From Aliarcobacter sp. (GTDB lineage: Bacteria; Campylobacterota; Campylobacteria; Campylobacterales; Arcobacteraceae): DNA of 64,000 bases. Positions 1-32,871 of this stretch are shown piece by piece. Below the pieces are notes generated by a model. It was not told the DNA's origin. It saw only the letters and a list, made by a program, of their open reading frames with translations, and ran no database searches. The translations under genes were made by a program, and so were the position numbers. The stretch's first letter is position 1. Each line of letters starts with the position of its first letter. The stretch is taken from contig JAQVBE010000003.1 in the NCBI GenBank assembly GCA_028690445.1, forward strand, positions 12,909-76,908, in the 5' to 3' direction.

Positions 1-379
1 TTTTTAATATCTCTTCTCTATACTCTTCTAATCTCTTTTGATTATCTTTATTTGAACTCTTCTCTTCTTCTAGCTCTTTTTGTAGTTTTTCACTCTCTTT
101 TTCTAAATCATCTTTCTCTTCTTTAAATCTATTTATTGATCTTTCCAAAGTCTCTATTTCATCAGTTGAATTCCTATATTTCTCATTCGCTTGATCTAAC
201 TGCTCTATTGATTTTTGATACTCATTCTCTAATCGTATTAATTCTCGCTCTTTTTTTAATATCTCTTCTCTATACTCTTCTAATCTCTTTTGATTATCTT
301 TATTTGAACTCTTCTCTTCTTCTAGCTCTTTTTGTAGTTTTTCACTCTCTTTTTCTAAATCATCTTTCTCTTCTTTAAA
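1..379. repeat. 252-bp tandem repeat inside the coiled-coil gene
   Basis: Bases 1-127 are identical to bases 253-379, a period of 252 bp or 84 codons. The segment between (128-252) is a related coiled-coil sequence. Base-perfect identity suggests recent duplication or conversion, and the array may continue left of the window. Confidence 0.95.
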
Positions 380-1306
380 CGCTTTAGAACTATTTTCGAT
401 TTCTTTCAAATTATTTTGTAATTCTAATAGTTTTATTTTATACTCTGCAATCTGTTCTGTAGAAAAACGATATTTTTTTCTAGCTTCATCTAAATCAGCT
501 TTTATAATATCTTTCGATTCAGAAAGTTCTCTATATCGTTTGTTTATATTACGAATTTTTTCTTGTTCTGAAATATAAGATCTTAATTCTGAATAAAAAT
601 TAGGTACATTTTCACCAAAAGTATTTATAATTTTTAATTTATGCACAAATACTACCATTGGTGTAGCACCAAATAATGTTATAGGTTCATATTGGAATTG
701 TTTCATATATTCAACAGTTTTATTAATTATCATTCTATCTATACATTCAATTAAAAGAATTGGAGAATTTTTTTGTATAACCTCTTTGGCTCCTGCTAAA
801 ACATCTAATTCAAAACCTTCTACATCTATTTTAATTAAAGATATAGTTTCACTTTTTGGAATCATGGAATCTAAAGTTTTAACTTCAATATCACCATTAT
901 TTTCATATGATATAGTTGTTGAACCAAGATTATTGTCTAGTATATTAGTAATTGAAGCTTTTCCATTAGCACTACCTATTCCCATTTTAAAATGACTAAC
1001 AAGCTTTTCTAATTTATTAATTGTAATATTTTCTTTTAAAAGTTTATATGCTGTTTCATTTGGTTCAAATGAGTAACACCTACGTTCCATAATTTTTGAA
1101 AAGAAAATAGTATGATTTCCTATATTAGCACCTACGTCAATAAAAGAACCTTCATCAATATAAATTACCAATAACCAATCAAGTAATTCACTTTCATAAA
1201 AATCTTTCTCTCTAGAAATAGTTTTAAAAATATAATCATTTTCAAGTAAATTAGAAAATAAAACACTTTTATTAAACTTTTTAATTTCAATAAATTTTTT
1301 TTCCAT
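1..1306 (-). CDS. FkbM-family methyltransferase with repetitive coiled-coil C-terminus (3' end outside window)
   Basis: Reading from ATG at 1306 gives a SAM-dependent methyltransferase domain: motif I FIDVGANIGNHT near residues 55-66 and an IDVEGFE motif near residue 165 are typical of the FkbM family, which O-methylates sugars. From about residue 215 the protein becomes a charged, Glu/Lys/Ser-rich coiled coil that runs off the window. The coiled coil holds a direct repeat of 84 residues. The start codon overlaps the wecC stop (TAATG), which implies translational coupling and a role in the same surface-polysaccharide locus. The gene is incomplete; its total length and the number of repeats are unknown. 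Confidence 0.88.
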   Translation of the reverse strand, partial: MEKKFIEIKKFNKSVLFSNLLENDYIFKTISREKDFYESELLDWLLVIYIDEGSFIDVGANIGNHTIFFSKIMERRCYSFEPNETAYKLLKENITINKLEKLVSHFKMGIGSANGKASITNILDNNLGSTTISYENNGDIEVKTLDSMIPKSETISLIKIDVEGFELDVLAGAKEVIQKNSPILLIECIDRMIINKTVEYMKQFQYEPITLFGATPMVVFVHKLKIINTFGENVPNFYSELRSYISEQEKIRNINKRYRELSESKDIIKADLDEARKKYRFSTEQIAEYKIKLLELQNNLKEIENSSKAFKEEKDDLEKESEKLQKELEEEKSSNKDNQKRLEEYREEILKKERELIRLENEYQKSIEQLDQANEKYRNSTDEIETLERSINRFKEEKDDLEKESEKLQKELEEEKSSNKDNQKRLEEYREEILK

Positions 1307-2541
1307 TATATACTCACAAAATCAATAATTTTATCAGACAATAATCCAATAAACTCTCTATGTTTTACCAACACTACTAATACATCAGCGTCACTTAAAG
1401 CTTGTTCTAGTTCTACAAGTTTTACATTTTTTCTATTTTCAAGCACTTTTGGTAATGACTTTACATTTGGCTCAACTGCTAATATCTCATAACCTTCTAC
1501 ATCAGATAGCATTTTTGTAATTTCTAGTGCAGGGGATTCTCTTAAGTCATCAATGTCAGGTTTAAATGCAAGTCCAAGACAAGCTATCTTAGGATTTTTC
1601 ATATCTTTTACAGCATCTTTTACTTTAGAGATTACAAAATGAGGTTTTCCATCATTTACAACTCTTGCTGTGTTTATAAGTTTTGCATCTTCAGGATATG
1701 CATTTACGATAAACCATGGATCTACGGCTATACAATGCCCACCTACTCCACATCCTGGTTGAAGTATATTTACCCTTGGATGTCTATTTGCTAGAGAGAT
1801 CAATTCCCAAACATCTATGCCCATTTTGTCACATAGTATAGAAAGCTCATTTGCAAAGGCTATTTGCACATCTCTTGAGGCATTTTCTGTTAGTTTTGCC
1901 ATCTCTGCTGTTCTTGCATTTGTAGCTATGCATTCACCTTCTACAAAGATTTTATAAAGTTCCGTTGCATCTCTTGTACACTTTGCAGTCATACCTCCGA
2001 TGATTCTGTCGTTTTCCACAAGTTCTCTTATCACATGTCCTGGAAGTACTCGCTCTGGACAATGAGCTATTCTTATATCAGATTCTTCACCATTTTGTTG
2101 AGGAAATGTCAAATCAGGTCTCTCTTGAACTAACCACTCAGCCATTTTTTCTGTAGCTCCTACAGGAGAAGTTGATTCTAGTACCACTAAGTCACCTTTT
2201 TTTAGAACTTTTGCAAGTGTTCTAGTCGCAGATTCTATATAGTCAAGATTTGGCTCATGGTCTTCACCTTTAAATGGTGTTGGTACAGCCATGATGAAAG
2301 CATCAGCAACTTCTGGAGTTGTTTGAGATTTTAAATATCCATCTCTTACTGTTGCATGTACTAGGATATCTAGTTCAGGTTCTACGATATGAATTTTTCC
2401 TTGATTTATAGTATCTACTGCATGTTGATTTATATCTACACCTATTACATTTACTTCTCTACTTGCAAACACTGCAGCCGTTGGTAAACCTATATATCCA
2501 AGCCCTATCATACATACTTTTTTAAATCTACTTTTATTCAT
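1306..2541 (-). CDS. wecC: UDP-N-acetyl-D-mannosamine dehydrogenase
   Basis: This 411-residue protein oxidises UDP-ManNAc to UDP-ManNAcA with NAD. The N-terminal Rossmann motif GLGYIGLPTA is at about residues 13-22. The catalytic cysteine motif GCGVGGHCIAVDPWF lies near residue 260, and the C-terminal UDP-binding domain contains GLAFKPDIDDLRESPA. It sits one base downstream of wecB, which makes its substrate, and both face the same way as the capsule genes. Length and motifs fit the WecC branch of UDP-sugar dehydrogenases. A UDP-GalNAc or UDP-Glc preference cannot be fully excluded, but wecB next door favours ManNAc. Confidence 0.93.
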   Translation of the reverse strand: MNKSRFKKVCMIGLGYIGLPTAAVFASREVNVIGVDINQHAVDTINQGKIHIVEPELDILVHATVRDGYLKSQTTPEVADAFIMAVPTPFKGEDHEPNLDYIESATRTLAKVLKKGDLVVLESTSPVGATEKMAEWLVQERPDLTFPQQNGEESDIRIAHCPERVLPGHVIRELVENDRIIGGMTAKCTRDATELYKIFVEGECIATNARTAEMAKLTENASRDVQIAFANELSILCDKMGIDVWELISLANRHPRVNILQPGCGVGGHCIAVDPWFIVNAYPEDAKLINTARVVNDGKPHFVISKVKDAVKDMKNPKIACLGLAFKPDIDDLRESPALEITKMLSDVEGYEILAVEPNVKSLPKVLENRKNVKLVELEQALSDADVLVVLVKHREFIGLLSDKIIDFVSI

Positions 2542-2542
2542 A

Positions 2543-3676
2543 TTATTTTGCTTCCTTTATAAAATTTACTATTCTTTCACAAGCCTTACCATCACCATAA
2601 GGATTATGTGCTTTTGACATAGTGTTATATTCATTTTCATCTTCTATCAATTTTTGAGCTTCTTTGATAATAGTCTCTTTTGAAGTACCTACTAGTTTTA
2701 CTGTTCCAGCCTCAACTGCTTCTGGTCGCTCTGTAGTATCTCTCATAACCAATACTGGTTTTCCCAAACTTGGTGCTTCTTCTTGTACTCCCCCACTATC
2801 AGTGATTATAAAATATGATTTATTCATCATATAAATAAACTGTTCATATTGAAGTGGATTTATTAGATATACATTTGAAGTATTTGACAGTATCTCTTTA
2901 ACTGGTTTTTGTACATTTGGATTTAAGTGTACTGGATAAACTATATCAATATCAGGATTATTTAAAGCAATTGTTTTTAATGCTTCACAGATATTTATAA
3001 ATCCATCACCAAAATTTTCCCTTCTGTGTCCAGTTACAAGTATAATTTTTTTATCATCTTTTAGTTCATATTGAGAGTTTATAGACTCTATAATTTTAGA
3101 TTTTAATTCATCATTTTTTTCTATTTTATATAGTGCTAAAAACAAAGCATCTATTACTGTATTTCCAGTAACTACTATATCCTTTGGATTTTTATTCTCT
3201 TTTAGAAGATTATTAGCACTTGTTGTTGTTGGAGCAAAATGATAGCTTGCTAATACCCCAGTTATTTGTCTATTTGCTTCTTCTGGCCATGGGCTATACA
3301 TATCACCAGTTCTAAGACCTGCTTCAACATGTCCTACTTTTATTTTATTATAAAAAGATGCTAGTGAAGCAGAAGAAGTGGTAGTAGTATCACCATGAAC
3401 AAGAACAACATCAGGAGAAAAATCATTTAAAACATCTTTTAAGCCCAAAAGTACATTTGATGTCACATCAAATAAGTCTTGACCTGGTTTCATGATGTTC
3501 AAATCATAATCAGGTTTTATATCAAACATTTCAAGAACTTGATCTAACATCTCTCTATGTTGTGCTGTTACACATACTTTTGATTCAATTGTTGGCTCAT
3601 TTTCAAAAGCTTTTACTAATGGTGCCATCTTTATCGCTTCTGGTCTTGTTCCAAATACTAATAATACTTTTTTCAA
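2543..3676 (-). CDS. wecB: UDP-N-acetylglucosamine 2-epimerase (non-hydrolysing)
   Basis: This cytoplasmic enzyme of 377 residues interconverts UDP-GlcNAc and UDP-ManNAc. Family signatures are [13 protein letters not shown] at the N-terminus, [10 protein letters not shown] in the middle and the UDP-binding block [17 protein letters not shown] near residue 290. Length is normal for the family. It ends one base before wecC, so the two probably form one operon giving UDP-ManNAcA for capsule or lipopolysaccharide. The 146 bp between this start and kpsD hold no gene and may carry its promoter. Confidence 0.95.
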
Positions 3677-30055: not shown

Positions 30056-30580
30056 TTAAAACGGAATTTGACTTTCGTCTATTTTTTCATATGTTTCATC
30101 TGAATTTTGTGTATTTTGTGTTGTCTCTGCATTGCTGCTAGACTCTTCAATTTCAATACCAAAAACGCCAGATAAATATCCAATCTTTAGCATACCAGTG
30201 TCACCTAATGCTTTGTTCTCTTTTAATTTATGAGTAGTTATGAACAGTGCATCACTATTATCAGTAATTTCTTTTTGTTTTTCTCTATCATATTTTTTTA
30301 AAAGTCCTAAAGTACCTTTTGTAACACTTTCTATAATAGTTTGATCTTGTTTTTTTGCAGGGAATGTTTTTCCTACGCAAACAACTTGCTCTTGACCTTG
30401 TCTATCTGTATAAGATTTCATTAAATCAAAACCCAAGTCTTGTCTTTTAACAAGTGTAACTGTTGTTTTACCAAAGAAACCTAAATTAATTGAACAAAAA
30501 ACACTCTTTGTGTTTGGATTATAAACTATATCTCCAAACGTTCTTTCTTTTCCGTAAGTTCTTTTTATTGTAGTTGTCAT
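30056..30580 (-). CDS. SSB-like single-stranded DNA-binding protein
   Basis: A 174-residue protein from ATG 30580, which has AAAGGAG upstream; the longer ORF to 30616 enters the leader. The N-terminal part is beta-rich (TFGDIVYNPNTKSVFCSINL; GKTTVTLVKRQDL), fitting an OB-like fold. A Ser/Thr/Gln/Asn-rich linker follows, and the end YEKIDESQIPF matches the acidic SSB tail DDxIPF that recruits partners. OB-fold identity is not certain. It belongs with recT, the nuclease and the primase in a replication/recombination module. Confidence 0.75.
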   Translation of the reverse strand: MTTTIKRTYGKERTFGDIVYNPNTKSVFCSINLGFFGKTTVTLVKRQDLGFDLMKSYTDRQGQEQVVCVGKTFPAKKQDQTIIESVTKGTLGLLKKYDREKQKEITDNSDALFITTHKLKENKALGDTGMLKIGYLSGVFGIEIEESSSNAETTQNTQNSDETYEKIDESQIPF

Positions 30581-31091: not shown

Positions 31092-31183
31092 TAACACCTC
31101 CCAAAATGTATTAGTTTTGTATCTTAAACAAGACACACCAAATAACTAACACAAAAAAGGATTTTTAATAAGTAGTGTAAGTA

Positions 31184-31214
31184 CTAGCATCAAAAAAATC
31201 ATTTTTTGTGCTAG
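31184..31214. other. Strong hairpin downstream of the group I intron
   Basis: CTAGCA and TGCTAG flank complementary A/T runs, extended outward by AAGTA/TACTT. It may be a terminator or a processing signal in either direction. Confidence 0.6.
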
Positions 31215-31385
31215 TTTATACTTGCCTCAATGGTCAATAGAATCGCAACTTCTACCCGTTCAAATCTGTTTAATAATGAATGAATAGTAAAACAAATTTA
31301 AACTGCCTTGTCTCTTAACAAGGGACGGACTATCTTTTACTTTCTTATTTTTTTGAAAGTTCCCCCGTTTCGCACCTATCATTTT

Positions 31386-32008
31386 TCTTAACTCACCACA
31401 CATCACAACACACACCACAATTTAATCTTAACTTGCAGTTTTTACTTTTTCCTCTTTTTTTGCTACTATTTTCCTTTCATCTTTGTTTTCTGCATCAACA
31501 ATTTCAATTTCACTATTTTCTTTATTTTTGTTTTTAAATTTTTGAATCTTTCTATTTAAACTAGGATTACTTGTTCTAACTCTTGCTTTGTTTAATAATT
31601 CAACTGCAATATCTTCTACTGCTTTTATTTGCTCACACATTAATGAGTATTCAGATTTAAATTTTGCTATATTATCACTATTAATTCCTCTTCCTTCTAA
31701 CCTATATAGATAATCCATTGCTTCATCAATATGTTCAATAGGTCTTACTGTTTCGGCCAAAAAGAATTTATCTTTTATTACTAAAAATTCAACATTTGCA
31801 CCATGTTCTTTGATTAAAGATGTTGCTCTTCTTATACTTTCATCTTGAGCAATTTTCCATCTAGGTATTTCTTGTTCGTTTTCTGTTTTTTCTACAGCCA
31901 TATTTTTTCCTTAATGTATTTAATAATTTAAAACTATGTATTTTTCATAGTCAACTTAAAAAAGCAAAAATGTTAATATAATCGTGTGTGATGTGTGGTG
32001 AGTTAAGA
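31386..32008. repeat. Perfect 22-bp inverted repeat enclosing the intron ORF
   Basis: Bases 31386-31407 are the exact reverse complement of 31987-32008 (TGTGATGTGTGGTGAGTTAAGA). In the RNA they form a long helix between the R and S elements with the ORF as its loop. Confidence 0.95.
31428..31901 (-). CDS. Protein encoded within the group I intron
   Basis: A 157-residue basic/acidic helical protein with AAGGA before ATG 31901. It has no LAGLIDADG, GIY-YIG, HNH or His-Cys motif, so it is not a recognisable homing endonuclease. The middle has KDKFFLAETVRPIEHIDEAM, then ARVRTSNPSLNRKIQKFKNK and a Lys/Glu tail. Its position in the loop of the 22-bp helix suggests it was placed there without breaking the ribozyme core. 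A maturase, a relaxosome protein or cargo are possible; I cannot decide. Confidence 0.75.
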   Translation of the reverse strand: MAVEKTENEQEIPRWKIAQDESIRRATSLIKEHGANVEFLVIKDKFFLAETVRPIEHIDEAMDYLYRLEGRGINSDNIAKFKSEYSLMCEQIKAVEDIAVELLNKARVRTSNPSLNRKIQKFKNKNKENSEIEIVDAENKDERKIVAKKEEKVKTAS

Positions 32009-32598
32009 GTCGCTTATAGGGCTACTCTCTTTCGAGATAGTCTCTGAACATATTTCATAATGAATATAGGCAAGAATTAAAAAAGGGAGCTTACGATGTC
32101 TTCAACTCTTTTAATTCTTAACTATATCCACCAAGAAACTTCGCTGCGTTTAGTTGATAGTCTCTATTTTGTCGTTTTTACCATCCAATAGGCATTACCC
32201 TATTTGCTACTTTATGTATTATTGTTTTTACATAAATGCGGTTTTTACAGTTTTAACTATAAAAGTGGAGCTTACGCTTTAACCACAGACAAAAATCACA
32301 TTTACTAAAAAGTAAAAGCTATGCTTTCGAGAGTATGCATAGAATACTGCCAGTTCTTTATTCTTAAACCGCACTGGCACTTCCCCGCAATTAGAGGGAT
32401 TTAAAGTCGGCATTCGGCTTTATTTTACCGACTTGAACTTCTATTTATCTCTTATTACTAGAGTTCTACCAAAGGCTTTCCAGAGAGACCTTAATAAAAA
32501 AAGATTAAAAATCTTGTAAATGTGTCTGGAAACACAAAAGATTTAAAAATCTTATTCAACTATAAAAGTAATATGCCGTAATATTAATACATTTTAAT

Positions 32599-32871
32599 TT
32601 ATTTGTCAATACTTTCTATATATTTTTTAAGATTATCAATTCTTATATCTCTATTATATGCTATTTTAAGTTCATCAGACATTTCTTCTAAAAAACCATC
32701 TATATACAAAATAATATTTTTTGCAAATAAATCTTTCCATTCTTTTTCAAGTTCAGGATTCATTGTACTAAGCTTTTTAAACATATGCGAAACTTGTGGT
32801 TTAAATATTTCCAAAAACCCAGCTTCAATATTTTCGGAAAACAACTCTCCTTTAGAGATTTTATTTTTCAC
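32599..32871 (-). CDS. Small hypothetical protein downstream of the HD protein
   Basis: A 90-residue helical acidic protein with GTG start at 32871 and an ideal AAGGAG, which lies over the preceding stop. Sequence features: EAGFLEIFKPQVSHMFKKLS and ELKIAYNRDIRIDNLKKYIE. Not recognised. It is the last gene before the intron and probably part of the transfer operon. Confidence 0.72.
   Translation of the reverse strand: MKNKISKGELFSENIEAGFLEIFKPQVSHMFKKLSTMNPELEKEWKDLFAKNIILYIDGFLEEMSDELKIAYNRDIRIDNLKKYIESIDK

Follow-up and report, generated by a model that had tools for sequence, protein, structure and literature searches.

A fungal mitochondrial LSU group I intron encodes ribosomal protein S3, a cargo gene that is not a homing endonuclease gene (HEG). 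The IA2 introns of phages and bacteria, such as the td intron of phage T4 and introns of the nrdB type, lie in protein genes and either lack an ORF or encode an HNH-like endonuclease. IStrons combine an IA2 intron with an IS200/605 or IS607 ORF at the 3' end and occur in Firmicutes and Fusobacteria (PMC4227781). The c-di-GMP-II allosteric group I ribozyme of C. difficile lies in a 5' leader, with a structured RNA just upstream (PMC3984707). A review places bacterial group I introns in tRNA, rRNA and protein genes and assigns their ORFs the role of homing endonucleases (PMC3984707).

The locus described here lies in a window of 64,000 nt, the whole stretch of DNA that was analyzed, from Aliarcobacter sp. 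(GCA_028690445.1, contig JAQVBE010000003.1, forward-strand positions 12,909-76,908). The minus strand contains a predicted group I intron of 1201 nt (31226-32426), and, as judged from the sequence, its structure establishes it as a member of the group I introns. It has the same P-Q-R-S core, the same P1 adjacent to P3, the same P9.0/P9.1/P9.2 hairpins and the same GAAY-N5-G 3' end as the phage and bacterial IA2 introns, including those at loci L071/L072 and L079 discussed below, but its exon is noncoding and its ORF is not a HEG. Like the IStrons, it carries a foreign protein gene and has the P7.1/P7.2 and P9.0-P9.2 architecture. However, there is no transposase, the ORF sits between P7-5' and P3-3', and the introns occur in Campylobacterota, in one copy per genome and at one syntenic site; no IS200/605 or IS607 ORF fused to the intron was found. 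The position in a 5' leader downstream of a structured RNA resembles the C. difficile ribozyme, but here an ORF is carried and no rearrangement of a start codon or RBS is predicted; no Rfam aptamer, c-di-GMP-II included, was found in the window or at five homologous loci. With the fungal intron it shares a non-HEG cargo gene within a group I ribozyme, whereas the exon (rRNA), the genome (organelle) and the protein differ. No earlier report of this intron family was found in the literature searched, the coverage of which was incomplete.

The core between 32426 and 31226 is complete, comprising P1, P3, P4, P7, P8 and P9.0-P9.2. The P, Q, R and S elements are all present with P7 and the G-binding site, and their standard order rules out a circular permutation of the intron. 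The P element with the 5' strand of P4 is AATTGCGGGGAA (32381-32392; motif and covariation), and the Q element AACGCAGCGAAG (32139-32150) contains the P4 3' strand CGCAG (32148-32144; pair 16-22, UA:7, GC:4). The R element GTTCAGAGACTATC (32036-32049; motif and covariation) includes the P7 5' strand GACUAUC (32042-32036), and the S element AAAGATAGTCCG (about 31337-31326) includes the P7 3' strand GAUAGUC (31334-31328) and the start of P9.0. P3 is formed by UCCCUC (32394-32399) and GGGGGA (31366-31361), with C-G/U-A covariation. The P8 hairpin CUUUC...GAAAG (31340-31359) shows two-sided changes in 5/5 pairs across homologs, and the P9.2 hairpin with its conserved UUGCG loop (31237-31255) in 6/6; between them lie the P9 hairpin (31306-31323), which was part of the covariation analysis, and the P9.1 hairpin (31258-31303). 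The intron ends (31235-31226) with the P9.0 3' strand GAC (31235-31233) and the terminal omega-G31226, as indicated by the stepwise variation of P9.0 and by the end of an nrdB intron. All these features are on the minus strand. The preliminary description, made from the sequence of this locus alone, had reported P, R and S in this order, the perfect P7 (GACTATC/GATAGTC) and P8 and P9 hairpins, and all of these were borne out, the hairpins by covariation among homologs; the Q element could be located too. Its interval of 31250-32480 should read 31226-32426, preceded by a leader exon reaching back to about 32574, and its "P2" hairpins 5' of 32427 belong to this exon, because the hairpin adjoining P3 (CGGU|...GCCG) is P1. 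The insertion at the P7.1/P7.2 position together with P9.0, P9.1 and P9.2 are features of subgroup IA2 as described in PMC4227781; the earlier label "td-like" is apt at the level of IA2-type features, as a likeness by described features, and at that level only.

The preliminary description had named a covariance score below threshold as one result that would count against it, and, taken literally, this was the outcome, as RF00028 stayed below threshold over the interval. No Rfam family reached its gathering score in the window. With the cutoff relaxed to E 10, the local scan of the window did not show RF00028 either, and a whole-genome search did not place it at the locus. The 221-base 3' half alone gave 18.4 bits (E=0.0099, over 31421-31306; gathering score 50), and the 5' half alone gave no match. 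The gathering score is a detection threshold and not a structural defining feature, and we attribute the low score to the ORF and large P5/P6 insertions, which split the model. The Nitrosophilus labii homolog has a close architecture and a compact core, and here RF00028 matches fall on either side of the ORF, at 42.6 bits (E=3.7e-9) for one half and 35.1 bits (E=6.5e-7) for the other; L085 gave a match in one half (26.9 bits). Rfam leaves the window alone undecided, and relatives were therefore needed.

A DNA search of 200 related genomes yielded a 75% identical copy in a congener (G003) and a matching fragment in Poseidonibacter ostreae (G084). Among plasmids, relatives were found on pCIG1485E of Campylobacter iguaniorum, on pHRV44 of Nitrosophilus labii and on one C. 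upsaliensis plasmid. When 397 Campylobacterota genomes were searched with a profile of the embedded ORF (A3), 16 matched, and a covariance model built on the 3' domain of the ribozyme (R2), run on 399 genomes of the order and the 397 genomes of the phylum, added member L068. In total, 13 members have a complete ribozyme with the ORF (window, G003, G084, Cig, Nlab, Cup, L055-L059, L061 and L068), and in these 13 related elements, all from the phylum Campylobacterota, ribozyme and ORF occupy the same location. Among the 397 Campylobacterota genomes, 13 bear the 3' domain, 12 of them with the ORF; the remaining one contains an ordinary intron in a polymerase-like gene, without the ORF. In L060, the 5' half of the ribozyme is lost and the ORF is broken; at 1-3411 of this contig, an unrelated transporter-gene region takes the place of the 5' half, a natural truncation. 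Viral contigs contained no relatives, and a pattern match in L043 (Bacteroidaceae) lacked a core and was dismissed as chance. The R2 model also found introns of order-mates in an nrdB-like gene (L071, L072, L073/L077) and in dnaK (L079). By inspection, the nrdB-like introns L072 and L073 contain an HNH-like ORF. The dnaK intron (L079 704-2898, G165:C9) is an ORF-less group I intron of 311 nt between DLGG and GTFD.

For the covariation analysis, the P3, P4, P7, P8, P9, P9.0 and P9.2 segments of 11 distinct members were aligned, their order was checked in the sources, and two rows were adjusted by hand. Standard pairs were found in 95.1% of the cells, compared with 73.7 +/- 1.3 after shuffling; two-sided changes were present in 24 of the 39 core pairs, and the covariation score was 0.611 versus 0.167 in the control. 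None of 500 shuffles matched the real core on any of these measures, and in controls slid by 1-3 columns pairing was at or below 49%. The helix segments were picked by eye, which favours pairing, and these controls are not fully independent for that reason. The choice of segments has no bearing on the compensatory changes seen in P3 (C-G to U-A, in L061 and the C. upsaliensis group), P4 (U-A to G-C) and P9.0 (G-C to A-U, L061), and the P9.0 variants change in step (GUUC:GAAC, AUUC:GAAU and GUC:GAC). P7 is nearly invariant, and its support is motif identity and not covariation. The analysis supports the P3-P9 core pairings, including the P3/P7 pseudoknot. A pairing proposed by RNAalifold in model R1 (AACGG:CCGUU) competes with P9.0, and therefore model R2 was used.

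The splice sites were predicted from pairing and from ordinary introns. The nrdB-like intron L071 ends in GAAU-N5-G and its P1 lies four bases before P3; the joined exons of L071 and L079 translate into intact reading frames, and the GAAY-N5-G end is shared with the nrdB intron, the exon junction of which was verified by translation. Applied to the family, the omega-G and the P1-P3 spacing of these introns place omega-G at 31226 and P1 next to P3. P1 (32404-32434, minus strand) would be formed by the exon sequence AAGUCGGU (32434-32427) and the IGS GCCGACUU (32411-32404), and the predicted 5' splice site is 32427|32426, after U32427, which closes the conserved CGGU/GCCG P1 with a U.G pair. This U.G is invariant in the 11 distinct P1s and kept in all 13 members, the outer pairs of P1 covary (score 0.255 versus 0.093), and the stem in the window is significant against shuffles (p=0.0005). 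The predicted 3' splice site is 31226|31225, after omega-G31226, which would give the ligated junction ...AGUCGGU|GCAAGUAU. By inspection, the window shows no P10 with the 3' exon; one can be drawn in a few members only, e.g. Cig (UAAU:AUUA) and L061 (UAAG:CUUA), and conservation of the 3' exon among members is poor. Searches of relatives found no intron-free allele of the exon, and the exon boundaries therefore rest on pairing and homology. An initial P1 assignment (AAGGU|/GCCUU at 32488 and equivalents) had the U.G in three members only and was dropped, because the hairpin next to P3 carries it in all. Pairing of the upstream UUUCCAGA with UCUGGAAA, considered as a P10 or a sign of a permuted intron, occurs in the window and G003 only and lies inside the leader. 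With that first P1, a short reading frame of 25 codons crosses the junction in Cig, but it is not conserved. A hairpin spanning the ligated exons looked attractive in L055, L056, L057 and Cup (Fisher p=0.024 over 12 members) and is not claimed here.

Neither a protein gene nor a tRNA gene is interrupted by the intron, which sits in a promoter-proximal structured noncoding leader. The preliminary description had seen no exon gene, and this stands: no protein-gene exon was found, and ARAGORN detected no tRNA or tmRNA across the 13 joined exons. The predicted 5' exon (32427-32574, minus strand) ends in ...AAGUCGGU|, its start being placed by a candidate sigma70-type promoter, TTGACA-17-TAATAT (32581-32609, minus strand). 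The window promoter matches the consensus at 10/12 positions, a match not above chance by itself (19% of shuffles reach it); homolog promoters match at up to 12/12 (L055, L057, L058), and the first leader hairpin follows the end of the -10 box at a distance of 31-34 nt in six members. A bulged leader hairpin, picked by eye, with a conserved bulge and a C-rich loop covaries in six members; the leaders found in the window and in G003 differ from these. Just downstream of omega-G, window 31144-31216 (minus strand) can fold in two mutually exclusive ways that are conserved in G003, as a hairpin from a 23-nt imperfect inverted repeat or as a smaller one. In L045 (4610-4713), a 21-bp tandem repeat, possibly of iterons, occurs in five copies upstream of the C. 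upsaliensis ribozyme.

The embedded ORF (31901-31428, minus strand) encodes 157 aa and lies between the ribozyme halves, between P7-5' and P3-3'. It is enclosed by a perfect 22-bp stem at the P7.1/P7.2 position (minus strand; 5' arm 31987-32008, 3' arm 31386-31407). Neither ORF nor stem was part of the preliminary description. Placing the ORF in P8 proved wrong, as P3-3' follows the ORF and P8 is the small hairpin beyond P3-3'. The ORF is present in every complete member, and homologs were found in the 13 ribozymes and at four ribozyme-free loci. In 17 ORF members no convincing known domain was found with Pfam, NCBIfam, PHROG and PDB sequences, and in the same collections the embedded ORF showed no resemblance to homing endonucleases. 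An AlphaFold model predicts four helices with moderate confidence (pLDDT 71); the predicted fold had no match in the PDB, and a function could not be derived from it. The dN/dS was determined for two pairs: a value of 0.17 between the window and G003 indicates purifying selection, and two free-standing copies (L064-L065) gave 0.04. Among the free-standing homologs, L062 and L063 directly precede bet, and ssb is next in L081; no ribozyme was found in the surroundings examined.

Genes in the window encode a TraG/TraD-type T4CP and HD-domain, Cas4/Dna2-like, RecT-like and primase-like proteins. In Aliarcobacter cibarius pACIB, the T4CP and HD genes occur together among F-type tra genes; no ribozyme was found in the stretch of pACIB examined. 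The T4CP, HD-domain, Cas4/Dna2-like and RecT-like neighbours and the F-type tra context in pACIB agree with the conjugative-type island proposed earlier. Together with the covarying core and the RF00028 matches of homologs, they support a group I intron in a conjugative island without a protein exon. At 30056-30580 (minus strand), an ORF ending in ...DESQIPF has an SSB-like acidic tip but no Pfam SSB domain and is possibly a divergent SSB. In L037 (9392-9607), PLSDB calls a 71-aa hypothetical gene ANT(4')-IIb at 100% identity, which looks like a spurious resistance call.

The explanation that we favor, with a probability of roughly 0.6, is that the locus is an IA2-type group I intron in the leader of an F-type element, is predicted to self-splice, and is kept for an ORF of the recombination module. 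RNA polymerase would start about 150 nt upstream of the intron, and the ribozyme would fold with the ORF held out on the long stem between P7-5' and P3-3'. A guanosine bound in P7 would cut after U32427 at the P1 U.G, and the freed leader would attack after omega-G31226. This would join the leader to the region ahead of the small genes and the recombination genes of ssb/bet type that follow, with release of an intron RNA of 1.2 kb. Having its own start and stop, the ORF would be translated, with either the precursor or the excised (possibly circular) intron serving as the mRNA. Its product would belong to the ssDNA-recombination module of the element and would not be an enzyme of intron mobility. 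Loss of the intron would then be loss of a gene, which would account for the persistence, at a single site in distant elements, of an intron that lacks a homing endonuclease.

Several other readings were weighed against splicing for the sake of the ORF. The leader might sense a ligand or protein and bias the ribozyme, splicing thereby setting the amount of the ORF or downstream mRNA. For such a domesticated switch, the C. difficile c-di-GMP ribozyme is a precedent (PMC3984707), and it would fit the structured domain directly 5' of P1, the covarying bulged hairpin in six members, and the GGDEF and HD-domain genes upstream in the Cig and Nlab elements. However, no known Rfam riboswitch reached its gathering score in five members, the window and G003 leaders are unlike the others, and the predicted splice neither creates nor removes downstream start codons, and we consider a switch unlikely. 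Similarly, it is improbable that only cleavage matters, by 3' hydrolysis at omega-G or a lariat-capping-like one-step reaction, with ligation incidental or lost and the ORF mRNA trimmed away from the downstream operon. The highly uniform P9.0 and omega-G end, with P10 and the 3' exon not conserved, would be in line with such processing, but pure 3' cleavage has no need of a P1 U.G that is kept in 13/13 members within a covarying P1.

The sub-threshold Rfam score of the window, and a relative without its whole 5' half and with a broken ORF (L060), could point to a decaying relic that is inactive in this genome. We regard this as very unlikely, as the catalytic core, the P7 G-site, P1 and P9.0 are intact in the window, P3 and P9.0 show compensatory changes among members, and the ORF is under purifying selection. 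Least credible of all is a function at the DNA level, in which a folded single strand near ssb would act in conjugative entry as an origin or a leading-region promoter; the nearby ssb/bet genes and long inverted repeats would suit it, but group I catalytic motifs and the P3/P7 pseudoknot pairing are RNA-specific demands. More tentatively than self-splicing for the retention of the ORF, we suggest that the exons may be an undescribed structured noncoding RNA of conjugative elements, and that maturation by a gene-carrying ribozyme may coordinate this RNA with expression of a recombination-module protein. If true, the intron would be domesticated and an obligate part of the regulatory circuit of the element.

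Three features make the family unusual: the cargo gene, the noncoding leader, and the long time for which it has stayed at one site without encoding a homing endonuclease. It breaks both rules of the review (PMC3984707), with a noncoding leader as its exon and a cargo gene that is also found outside introns. As the model is split by the ORF, the family escapes detection at Rfam gathering thresholds, and plasmid annotation may therefore be passing over similar cases. The family provides a concrete case of an intron without homing activity that persists across bacterial families, which makes the reasons for keeping such introns accessible to experiment.
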